Assembly (NCBI RefSeq): GCF_021531595.1
Contig: NZ_JADYUD010000015.1
Coordinates: forward strand, 1-48,668
From: Fusobacterium perfoetens
Lineage (GTDB): Bacteria; Fusobacteriota; Fusobacteriia; Fusobacteriales; Fusobacteriaceae
Length of the DNA stretch: 48,668 bases
Direction: 5' to 3'
In this document: positions 17,288 through 19,736 of the stretch, one piece after another
How positions within the stretch are numbered: the stretch's first letter is position 1
Layout: every line of letters starts with the position of its first letter
Notes under the pieces: model-generated
What the model was told of the DNA's origin: nothing
What the model saw: only the letters and a program-made list of their open reading frames with translations
The model's database searches: none
Made by a program: the position numbers and the translations under genes

Positions 17288-17914
17288 TTATTTTTTTATA
17301 GCTGGTCTTACAACAAGGTAACCGTTTTTAGCTCCAGGTACTGCACCTTTTATTAAGATTACATTGTTTTCAACATCTAATTTAACTACTTTTAAGTTTT
17401 GAACTGTTACAGTAGCATTTCCATATTGTCCAGCCATTCTTAATCCTTTTAATACTTTTCCAGGCCATGAAGATTGTCCGATAGATCCTCCAAGTCTGTG
17501 GTTTCTTGAAACCCCGTGAGACGCTCTGTTTCCACCGAAGTTATGTCTTTTCATAACCCCTGATGTTCCTTTACCTTTTGAAGTTCCTGTAATATCTACG
17601 AACTCAACACCATTTAGAACATCAACTTTAATTTCTTGTCCTAACTCATATCCTTCAACTGAGTCAACTTTTAGTTCTTTAACAAATCTTAATGGTTTTA
17701 CACCAGCTTTATTAAAGATACCCATCATTGGTTTAGTAGAATTTTTTTCTTTTTTCTCATCAAAACCAAGTTGTAATGCTGTATAACCTTCACCTTCTAC
17801 TGTTTTCTTTTGTAAAACAAAGTTTGGTCCAGCTTCTACAACTGTTACTGGAACGAACTTTCCATCTTCAAAGATTTGAGTCATTCCGATTTTTTTTCCT
17901 AGAATTCCTAACAT
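17288..17914 (-). CDS. rplC: 50S ribosomal protein L3
   Basis: Early-assembly protein whose central extension reaches the peptidyl transferase centre. The motifs LGKKIGMTQIFED, the extension with RASHGVSRNHRLGG and GQSSWPGKVLKGLRMAGQYG are typical, including the conserved glutamine that is methylated in some bacteria. It is 208 aa. GGAGG lies 7 nt before the ATG. Unlike in most S10 operons, 170 nt separate it from rpsJ. Confidence 0.98.
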   Translation of the reverse strand: MLGILGKKIGMTQIFEDGKFVPVTVVEAGPNFVLQKKTVEGEGYTALQLGFDEKKEKNSTKPMMGIFNKAGVKPLRFVKELKVDSVEGYELGQEIKVDVLNGVEFVDITGTSKGKGTSGVMKRHNFGGNRASHGVSRNHRLGGSIGQSSWPGKVLKGLRMAGQYGNATVTVQNLKVVKLDVENNVILIKGAVPGAKNGYLVVRPAIKK

Positions 17915-17943
17915 TTGTTATAACCTCCATCAAATAATATATT

Positions 17944-18053
17944 GGTTGACAACTTGACCTCGTGGTTCTATGAACCTGCTTTAAAAAAAGCGTCAACTTG
18001 TATTATTCTGTAAGGATAATTTGATTTCAACCTTAATTTAAATTTTCAAATTA
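17944..18053 (-). promoter_or_regulatory. Structured rpsJ-rplC spacer, candidate cis-regulatory RNA
   Basis: On the minus-strand transcript an outer helix joins 18001-17992 with 17958-17949 (nine of ten pairs). It encloses two hairpins: 17991-17978 (GCTTT/AAAGC) and 17976-17964 (GGTTC/GAACC around ATA). Together they make a compact three-way junction ending about 35 nt before the rplC ATG. A further 8-bp stem (TAATTTGA/TCAAATTA) joins 18053-18046 with 18024-18017. GGTTGA (18032-18027) could alternatively pair with TCAACC (17949-17944), which suggests two competing folds. No open frame or promoter was recognised here. Confidence 0.55.
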
Positions 18054-18084
18054 CCCGAGAATCAGCCATTTTTGTGTTTTTAAA

Positions 18085-18396
18085 CTACGCTTGTTTAATC
18101 TCGATTCCAACACCAGCTGGTAAGTTAACCGCTGTTAAAGATGATATTGTTTTTTGAGTAGAGTTTTTGATTTCCACCATTCTTCTGTGAATTCTCATTT
18201 CAAACTGCTCTCTTGAATCTTTGTTAACATGTACTGATCTTAATACAGTGTATTTTTTAATCTTAGTTGGTAGTGGCATAGGACCAGCTATTTCTGCTCC
18301 AGATTTTTCTGCAACTTCAGCTATCTTCTTTGCTGATTGATCTAGTAACATATGATCGTAAGCTTTCAAGTAGATTCTTAATTTATTAGAAGCCAT
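18085..18396 (-). CDS. rpsJ: 30S ribosomal protein S10
   Basis: Head protein; outside the ribosome it is NusE, a partner of NusB in antitermination. The motifs [21 protein letters not shown] and [22 protein letters not shown], then [10 protein letters not shown], are diagnostic; it is 103 aa. It is the first gene of the operon. AAAGGAGGT lies 7 nt before the ATG, and a hairpin stands in the 5' leader. Confidence 0.98.
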
Positions 18397-18428
18397 TTAT
18401 ACACCTCCTTTAATTAATTTTTTAATTT

Positions 18429-18448
18429 AAAGGATATTAACATCCTTT
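18429..18448 (-). promoter_or_regulatory. Leader hairpin upstream of rpsJ
   Basis: AAAGGAT/ATCCTTT, a 7-bp perfect stem with a 6-nt loop, in the short 5' leader between the promoter and the rpsJ ribosome-binding site. No T-run follows, so it is not a terminator. It may stabilise or modulate the leader. Confidence 0.45.
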
Positions 18449-18461
18449 GTACACCTTGAGA

Positions 18462-18489
18462 ATTATATCATAAATCCCAGTATTTGCAA
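18462..18489 (-). promoter_or_regulatory. Promoter of the S10-spc operon
   Basis: TTGCAA (18489-18484), 16-nt spacer ending in TGA (extended -10), perfect TATAAT (18467-18462), about 65 nt before the rpsJ ATG. The remaining DNA from 18490 to 18660 is very AT-rich with A/T tracts suited to an UP element; no gene is seen in it. Confidence 0.85.
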
Positions 18490-18660
18490 AGCTTTTTTTT
18501 GATTTTTTGCAAAAAATTTTTTTTGATTTTTATTTGTTAGAAAATTATTTTATTTTTACATATTTCTTACACATTTTATATAAAAATTTATCTTTTTAAA
18601 TCTCTTCATTATTATATATGAAAAAATTCATAACAAAATTTTATATTATGATCCTATAAA

Positions 18661-18743: not shown

Positions 18744-19736
18744 TTATTTTACTTCTTCCATTTCAATAGCTTTCTTAGGACATTTAGAAGCACAAATTCC
18801 ACATCCTACACATTTTGCAAGATCAACTTTGTGTTTTTCTTTTAATGCACCTTCAATTGCTGATACAGGACAGTTCTTAGCACAGATTGTACATCCTATA
18901 CATTTATCTTCATGAATAACTGCTTTTTTAGGAACTACAAGACTGTTTATTGCTTTAGTAGGACATTTAGTTGCACACAATCCACATTGAATACATTTAG
19001 CTGGATCTATTTTAGCTAAATTGTTTTCAACTGTTATTGCACCTACAGGACATGCTTTTGCACACATTCCACATCCTATACAAGCTGTTTTACAATTCTT
19101 TCTTGCATCTGCACCTTTGTCTTTAGAAGAGCAAAGAACATTTACTTTCTGTGGTTGAGGAAGCATTGCTATTACAAGTTTAGGACATGCTTTTGCACAT
19201 GCTCCACAAGCAACACATTTATCTTCATCTATATGAGCTATTCCGTCAACAATAGATATTGCACCTACAGGACATACTTTTATACAGTCTCCTTTTCCAA
19301 GACAAGCATAAGAACATGCTTTTTCCCCTGAAGCATATATATTCATAGAAGCACATGTTGTGATGTTTCCTCTGAAATTATATTTTTCTGCTGCATTTTC
19401 ATGTTTTCCTTGGCAAAGAACTCTTGCAACAATTCTTGGCCCATCTGACACTTCTGCAGTCATTCCCATTATTTCACAAATTTTATCTGCTACAGCTTTT
19501 CCACCTGGAGCACACATATTAGGTTTTGCACCTTTATTTACAACTGCATCAGCATATCCTCCACATCCTGGGAATCCACATCCTCCACAGTTAGCACCAG
19601 GAAGACATCCTGTTATTGCTGATACTCTTTCATCAACTTTAACCTCAAATTTTTTAGAGGCAAAAGCTAAGAATAATCCCATAGCTAATCCTGTTAATCC
19701 AAGAATAACTACAGCTATTAATATTTCACTTCCCAT
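18744..19736 (-). CDS. rnfB: Ion-translocating oxidoreductase complex subunit B, multi-ferredoxin form
   Basis: Peripheral electron-entry subunit of the Rnf complex (ferredoxin:NAD+ oxidoreductase), thought to accept electrons from reduced ferredoxin. An N-terminal membrane helix (about residues 5-27) is followed by the ARC [4Fe-4S] domain with Cys at about 44, 50, 53 and 58 (GANCGGCGFPGCGGYA). Six more cysteine-rich CP motifs follow, of the CxxCxxCxxxCP kind or close to it, so the protein can hold up to seven [4Fe-4S] clusters, far more than enterobacterial RnfB. The frame extends upstream to 19772, but GGAGG lies 6 nt before the ATG at 19736, which gives the usual hydrophobic start (330 aa). 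It overlaps nothing after trimming and is the last gene of rnfCDGEAB. Confidence 0.95.
   Translation of the reverse strand: MGSEILIAVVILGLTGLAMGLFLAFASKKFEVKVDERVSAITGCLPGANCGGCGFPGCGGYADAVVNKGAKPNMCAPGGKAVADKICEIMGMTAEVSDGPRIVARVLCQGKHENAAEKYNFRGNITTCASMNIYASGEKACSYACLGKGDCIKVCPVGAISIVDGIAHIDEDKCVACGACAKACPKLVIAMLPQPQKVNVLCSSKDKGADARKNCKTACIGCGMCAKACPVGAITVENNLAKIDPAKCIQCGLCATKCPTKAINSLVVPKKAVIHEDKCIGCTICAKNCPVSAIEGALKEKHKVDLAKCVGCGICASKCPKKAIEMEEVK

Follow-up and report, generated by a model that had tools for sequence, protein, structure and literature searches.

A conserved RNA element between rpsJ and rplC of Fusobacteriota, a candidate translational operator for ribosomal-protein genes

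The DNA analyzed here is a 48,668-nt stretch of a Fusobacterium perfoetens contig (NZ_JADYUD010000015.1), referred to below as the window. Its minus strand carries a series of genes that, judging by the translations, we take to be the S10 operon: rpsJ, a spacer, rplC and then the genes for L4, L23, L2, S19, L22, S3 and L16. The gene coordinates give a spacer of 170 nt, exactly the length named in the original prediction, which had also held that this gap is short in most S10 operons; the median was indeed 36.5 nt in 60 junctions from two other phyla. Together with 20 further nt, the spacer reached a fold z of -2.12, and 4 of 200 shuffles folded equally well. The 110-nt interval singled out originally (17944-18053) folded better than its shuffles (z = -3.42, 1 of 200 equally good), but it omits the 3' half of the outer helix and the Shine-Dalgarno sequence of the element described here.

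The rpsJ 5' regions of the collected loci (L001-L090) were also inspected. A promoter-like TTGCAA..TATAAT lies 5' of rpsJ in the window (18397-18500, minus) and is common to Fusobacteriaceae, whose rpsJ has a brief 5' UTR, often with a short hairpin; no long S10-type leader was seen 5' of rpsJ in the Fusobacteriaceae of this set. Many Leptotrichiaceae-type genomes have rpsJ after the end of a tuf-like gene, with spacers from about 20 nt upward. Upstream of the rpsJ promoter, the window holds a terminator-like hairpin of 16 pairs (18701-18666, minus), 3' of a gene ending at 18744.

Of 98 Fusobacteriota genomes, 90 had an rplC match and 8 had none; the rpsJ–rplC spacer was extracted from all 90. 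The family names Fusobacteriaceae and Leptotrichiaceae-type are inferred names for the family groups f1 and f4. Although spacer length ranged from 9 to 202 nt, a core was present in 89 of the 90 junctions, spread over five of six families. It always has the same order: an A/U-rich 5' strand comes first, followed by UACAAGUUG or something very similar, an insert, CAACCAAUAUAU or something very similar, and finally the Shine-Dalgarno sequence; UAUAAGUUG or UAUACGUUG replaces UACAAGUUG in three spacers. The apical insert varies from 2 to 120 nt over all genomes, and the compact Leptotrichiaceae forms are mostly 45-60 nt long. The sole junction without the element belongs to a genome of about 0.8 Mb from another family, with a 9-nt spacer (L090, G001). 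In one spacer (L055, G046) the first letters nearly repeat the 3' part of the element (TATTATTTGATAAAGGTAAAA versus TATTATTTGATGGAGGT), which looks like a duplication of the rplC initiation region.

Two alignments were used for the analysis of pairing. A1 holds 36 compact members from five families, two spacers with very long inserts (L065 and L071) being omitted; A2 holds 49 of the 55 Fusobacteriaceae spacers, the near-identical L016, L027, L028, L029, L040 and L052 being omitted. On both alignments RNAalifold chose the same two helices, an outer helix P1 and an inner helix P2, separated by an internal loop CAA / CAAUA (Table 1). P1 reads CUUARUA/UAUUAAG in most Leptotrichiaceae-type genomes and GAAUAAUA/UAUUAUUU in Fusobacteriaceae; its inner part is common to the families and its outer pairs are compensated between them. 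In three loci (L056, L059, L087) the aligned cores place P1 in another register, where AUAUA could pair with UAUAU. The P2 consensus is GUUGRC/GUCAAC, and the letters of the internal loop are kept as firmly as the helices.

Covariation was judged by shuffles, slides and tree counts. In A1, 96.9% of cells were paired, compared to at most 58.9% in slid controls, and changes on both sides were seen in 4 pairs and 18 cells, whereas shuffles gave 1.4 and 3.5; by number of pair types, A1 did not exceed its shuffles (reached in 192 of 500). The A2 helices hardly vary: 99.9% of P1 and P2 cells were paired, and only one pair had changes on both sides. Over the 89 genomes P2 was canonical in 532 of 534 cells, and on a quick tree of S10 and L3 its six pairs required at least 1, 0, 0, 3, 15 and 12 changes, about 31 in total. 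P1 and P2 with their internal loop are thus the conserved structure, supported by covariation. Covariation among relatives, on which the original prediction had been staked beforehand, was found, but for a pairing other than the one proposed.

Table 1. Features of the rpsJ–rplC junction in window coordinates (A1, alignment of compact members; R1, covariance model built on A1).
Feature	Position	Strand	Basis
rplC (L3), gene directly 3' of the element	17288-17914	minus	
rplC Shine-Dalgarno GGAGG	17924-17928	minus	sequence; kept in aligned relatives
Core RNA element	17924-18013	minus	R1 match, 47.3 bits, E 1.0e-6; sequence outside the R1 training set
P1 outer helix, 3' strand UAUUAUUU	17932-17939	minus	both RNAalifold alignments
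Conserved internal loop, 3' side CAAUA	17940-17944	minus	invariant in the 36 rows of A1
P2 inner helix, 3' strand GUCAAC	17945-17950	minus	RNAalifold and pair counts
P2 apical insert, 41 nt in the window	17951-17991	minus	two small hairpins inside (17978-17991 and 17964-17976)
P2 inner helix, 5' strand GUUGAC	17992-17997	minus	RNAalifold and pair counts
Conserved internal loop, 5' side CAA	17998-18000	minus	nearly invariant across families
P1 outer helix, 5' strand GAAUAAUA	18001-18008	minus	both RNAalifold alignments
CUU segment, can pair with Shine-Dalgarno GAG (17925-17927)	18012-18014	minus	Fusobacteriaceae; RNAalifold
Upstream accessory stem GGGUAAUUUGA/UCAAAUUAUCC	18014-18056	minus	most Fusobacteriaceae
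rpsJ (S10), gene directly 5' of the element	18085-18396	minus	

Fusobacteriaceae add further parts to this core, so that the full element in the window spans about 17924-18056 (minus). Within the apical insert of the window lie a motif of Fusobacteriaceae, GAACCACGAGG (17958-17968), and the greater part of a second CAAGUUG copy. The pairing of CUU with the GAG of the Shine-Dalgarno sequence is canonical in 49 of 49 Fusobacteriaceae rows; it is mostly invariant and hence gains little support from covariation. The upstream stem had a mean z of -1.9 over 55 Fusobacteriaceae spacers, 30 of them below -2. Compensatory changes in this stem could be read from the spacers L008, L011 and L043, and it is missing or different in L042, L044, L045 and L055.

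To search for the element elsewhere, the covariance model R1 (57 positions, 13 pairs) was built on A1. Over the 98 Fusobacteriota genomes, 87 had one match each at E <= 7e-4, all directly before rplC, and the best match away from this site reached only E 0.043. These 87 comprise the 36 training members and 51 genomes outside the training set; all 51 are Fusobacteriaceae, the window included, and match at the rplC site. In the window genome the core match was the only one at E <= 1. R1 was weak on L065, with its 100-nt insert (E 0.12), and missed L071, with an insert of 120 nt. Two other phyla supplied 60 loci with rpsJ and rplC, 30 from each phylum's 116 matched genomes (119 and 120 genomes searched), and the best R1 value on these was E 1.1. 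A further R1 search of 398 genomes from one other phylum gave no match at E 0.01, which shows little, since few candidates were scored per genome.

An exact-pattern scan of 84,980 species genomes gave 16 matches, 9 of which were Fusobacteriota at rpsJ–rplC; the pattern, being exact, recovered only some of the Leptotrichiaceae already known and the scan is therefore not a census. The other 7 matches lay in loci without an rpsJ or rplC match, mostly inside long open frames, and R1 on the genomes concerned gave E 0.099 at best. Rfam 15 had no match at the element at gathering score in the window, where it found one tRNA only, and none in L001, L008, L044, L056, L060, L064, L069 and L087. Among the mostly short rpsJ–rplC spacers of another phylum, four (L128, L138, L148, L150) measure 100-124 nt and could hold unrelated leaders. 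Four spacers from the phylum of genome G100 (L159, L169, L172, L179) are 90-105 nt long, start similarly and have a common 3' end, GCGAAAGAGAGAGGATCTGGAATG or close to it; their letters suggest that they hold a conserved element of their own lineage.

Ribosomal proteins that control their own message often, though not necessarily, bind an RNA resembling their rRNA site, as S8 does, and likeness to 23S rRNA was examined here. A scan of 23S rRNA with the internal-loop signature gave 6-7 for the real sequence and 6-8 for shuffles. Mimicry of the L3 region in domain VI, through AUAGGUUGG..CCAAUACUAAU of Fusobacteriaceae 23S rRNA (presumably helix H99), was rejected because Leptotrichiaceae-type 23S rRNA has other letters there while the leaders of this group are unchanged. 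The motif GAACCACGAGG was likewise tried as a mimic of a domain I hairpin at about 375-399 in E. coli numbering, which we take to be H21; 7-10 nt were common, not beyond chance. The compact inserts of L044, L045 and L055 have ACACGAGGAA in common with the loop of a domain I hairpin (E. coli ~382-391). This 10-nt match, seen in three compact spacers, also arises in about 4% of the shuffled versions of that insert and is not beyond chance alone.

The core adjoins the rplC Shine-Dalgarno sequence. Since the letters of the internal loop are as fixed as the helices, a ligand is indicated rather than a plain stem, and the position of the element, its conserved unpaired letters, its single copy per genome and its contact with the Shine-Dalgarno sequence together favor a trans-acting ligand that controls the translation of rplC. 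The simplest candidate would be a protein encoded by the same message. We postulate that the spacer RNA is a phylum-wide cis-acting element and that it probably, though by no means certainly, acts as an autogenous translational operator for rplC and the following genes. A large-subunit protein encoded in the operon, once in excess over free rRNA, would bind the conserved internal loop and the flanking helices and clamp P1 beside, or partly over, the rplC Shine-Dalgarno sequence. Initiation at rplC would be lowered, and that of the following genes with it through translational coupling, while rpsJ would be translated from its own upstream start.

Hiding of the Shine-Dalgarno sequence by folding alone was considered as well and rejected. 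Of 89 genomes, only 50 had a predicted accessibility below that of a control whose 5' part was shuffled, and in Leptotrichiaceae-type genomes the predicted mean even lay above the shuffled control (0.73 versus 0.66). As accessibility is not lowered beyond shuffles, a block would have to come from a bound ligand or from effects outside the fold program. The likeliest ligands, almost level with each other, may be L4, by analogy with its role as a regulator of S10 operons elsewhere, and L3, the product of the first gene under the proposed control; either choice is tentative. Both belong to the proteins with which assembly of the large subunit begins, as described in PMC10931766.

The original prediction had seen a three-way junction closed by a 10-bp helix, ACAAGUUGAC/GUCAAGUUGU, with one G-G mismatch, two small hairpins and an upstream stem, and the sequence contains all of these, as does the minimum-energy fold predicted for it. 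A conserved, covarying RNA directly before the rplC ribosome-binding site in 89 of 90 junctions agrees with the leader proposed there, but the three-way junction is not its conserved form: over 49 Fusobacteriaceae spacers the nine pairs were formed in 85.7% of cells, compared to 85.5% in shuffles, and the covariation score of the helix was reached by 67 of 500 shuffles. A competing helix GGUUGA/UCAACC, also proposed, fared no better, its upstream GGUUGA being present in only a few spacers of the same genus. For the full spacer of the window, the ACAAGUUGAC/GUCAAGUUGU fold was predicted at -37.1 kcal/mol, versus -34.5 with P1 and P2 enforced, a gap of 2.6; for the core the values were -20.6 and -19.8 (0.8 apart), and P1 stays in both folds. 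Modeling thus suggests that in some Fusobacteriaceae the spacer may also adopt the ACAAGUUGAC/GUCAAGUUGU fold. A bistable switch in this family, in which ACAAGUUGAC/GUCAAGUUGU and P2 would compete for a common 5' strand and the choice between them would fall to a ligand, would agree with these small energy differences, with a second GUUG copy that is invariant in 49 of 49 A2 rows and with the predicted P2 probability, which averages only 0.48 in Fusobacteriaceae, compared to 0.90 in Leptotrichiaceae-type genomes, and is 0.25 in the window. Yet all nine pairs of the alternative helix are present in just 18 of 49 rows, with covariation no better than in shuffles, and the other families lack the helix although they retain the core, Leptotrichiaceae-type spacers being without its 3' strand. 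We regard such a switch as improbable.

A stem between two cistrons might also work without any ligand, by setting ribosome passage or re-initiation from rpsJ to rplC. The 5' strand of P1 begins a few nt from the rpsJ stop codon in Leptotrichiaceae-type genomes, inside the expected footprint of a ribosome terminating there, so that terminating ribosomes could open P1, and rpsJ and rplC are known to be translationally coupled in E. coli (PMC12548453, citing Lindahl 1989). However, most Fusobacteriaceae have the same core even though their rpsJ stop is situated a good way upstream and separated from P1 by a stem, and coupling alone leaves the fixed internal-loop letters unexplained, which makes this reading unlikely. 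We consider it quite unlikely that the RNA mainly serves mRNA processing or stability, with an RNase cut near the stem separating the rpsJ message from the rplC-rplD part: a structured, A/U-rich, single-copy intercistronic RNA with an extra stem just upstream in most Fusobacteriaceae would suit this role, but strict conservation up to the Shine-Dalgarno sequence and a helix ending there fit control of initiation better. An internal promoter or other DNA-level site for rplC is very improbable. No internal promoter is conserved in the spacer; the one promoter-like match (18030-18002, minus, 10/12) has a first hexamer, TTGAAA, that is not kept in relatives, the conserved letters track RNA pairing and not promoter spacing, and rpsJ itself is preceded by a clear promoter-like site (18489-18462). 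A small molecule or ion could fit into a conserved internal loop flanked by two helices, but an element that occurs only before rplC, once per genome and without an Rfam match, is hardly credible as a riboswitch.

The autogenous operator for rplC hence remains the reading that we prefer. A more specific version, in which the RNA would be the first L3-based autogenous regulator, act between rpsJ and rplC and exist in Fusobacteriaceae as a two-state RNA with competing GUUG copies, is doubtful. If L3 were the regulator, control of the S10 operon would lie between rpsJ and rplC and not before rpsJ, and the small-subunit protein S10 would thereby escape feedback on large-subunit genes; L3 is, in addition, absent from the ligands in Table 1 of Eckert and Weinberg 2020 (PMC7247131). 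If L4 were the ligand, it would act through a different RNA and at a different place than in E. coli. In either case an operon that is among the best conserved in bacteria would gain a phylum-wide regulatory RNA, and the compact Leptotrichiaceae forms ease binding and structure work.

Our searches of the open-access literature gave no description of the rpsJ–rplC element. It lies consistently upstream of a ribosomal-protein gene (89 of 90 junctions, always rplC) and has a structure supported by covariation, as ribosomal-protein leaders do. Among the 20 new leaders in Table 1 of PMC7247131, Fusobacteria appear only with an S4 leader before rpsM; rpsJ–rplC of Fusobacteria is not in that table. 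On this evidence, drawn from sequence comparison and that table, the element is a new ribosomal-protein leader candidate. The S4 leader comes from the same bacterial group (Fusobacteriales) and is listed there as controlling rpsM, rpsK, rpsD, rpoA and rplQ, with S4 as ligand. In contrast to its placement at rpsM, rpsK and rpsD, strong R1 matches were found only before rplC. S10 leaders of Firmicutes and Clostridia are placed before rpsJ. By name, they belong to the same operon as the present element (PMC7247131). An L4 leader before rplC is given in Table 1 of that paper only for Archaeoglobi, where it is predicted before rplC, rplD, rplW and rplB; it is archaeal, a borderline candidate to its authors and comparable to our element by position. 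The S10 leader of E. coli serves the same gene set, including L3 and L4, but it lies in a long 5' UTR upstream of rpsJ, bound by L4 and acting also by attenuation with NusA (PMC10931766), whereas the element described here follows rpsJ. Operators between cistrons are established for ribosomal proteins of E. coli, namely for S7 between rpsL and rpsG in the str operon and for S8 at rplE in the spc operon (PMC10931766). These sites belong to other operons, and the S8 site resembles its own rRNA site, a likeness not seen in the rplC element; as in the arrangement proposed here, however, the operator lies in a polycistronic ribosomal-protein message before a later cistron, and the genes downstream are coupled to it (PMC10931766).
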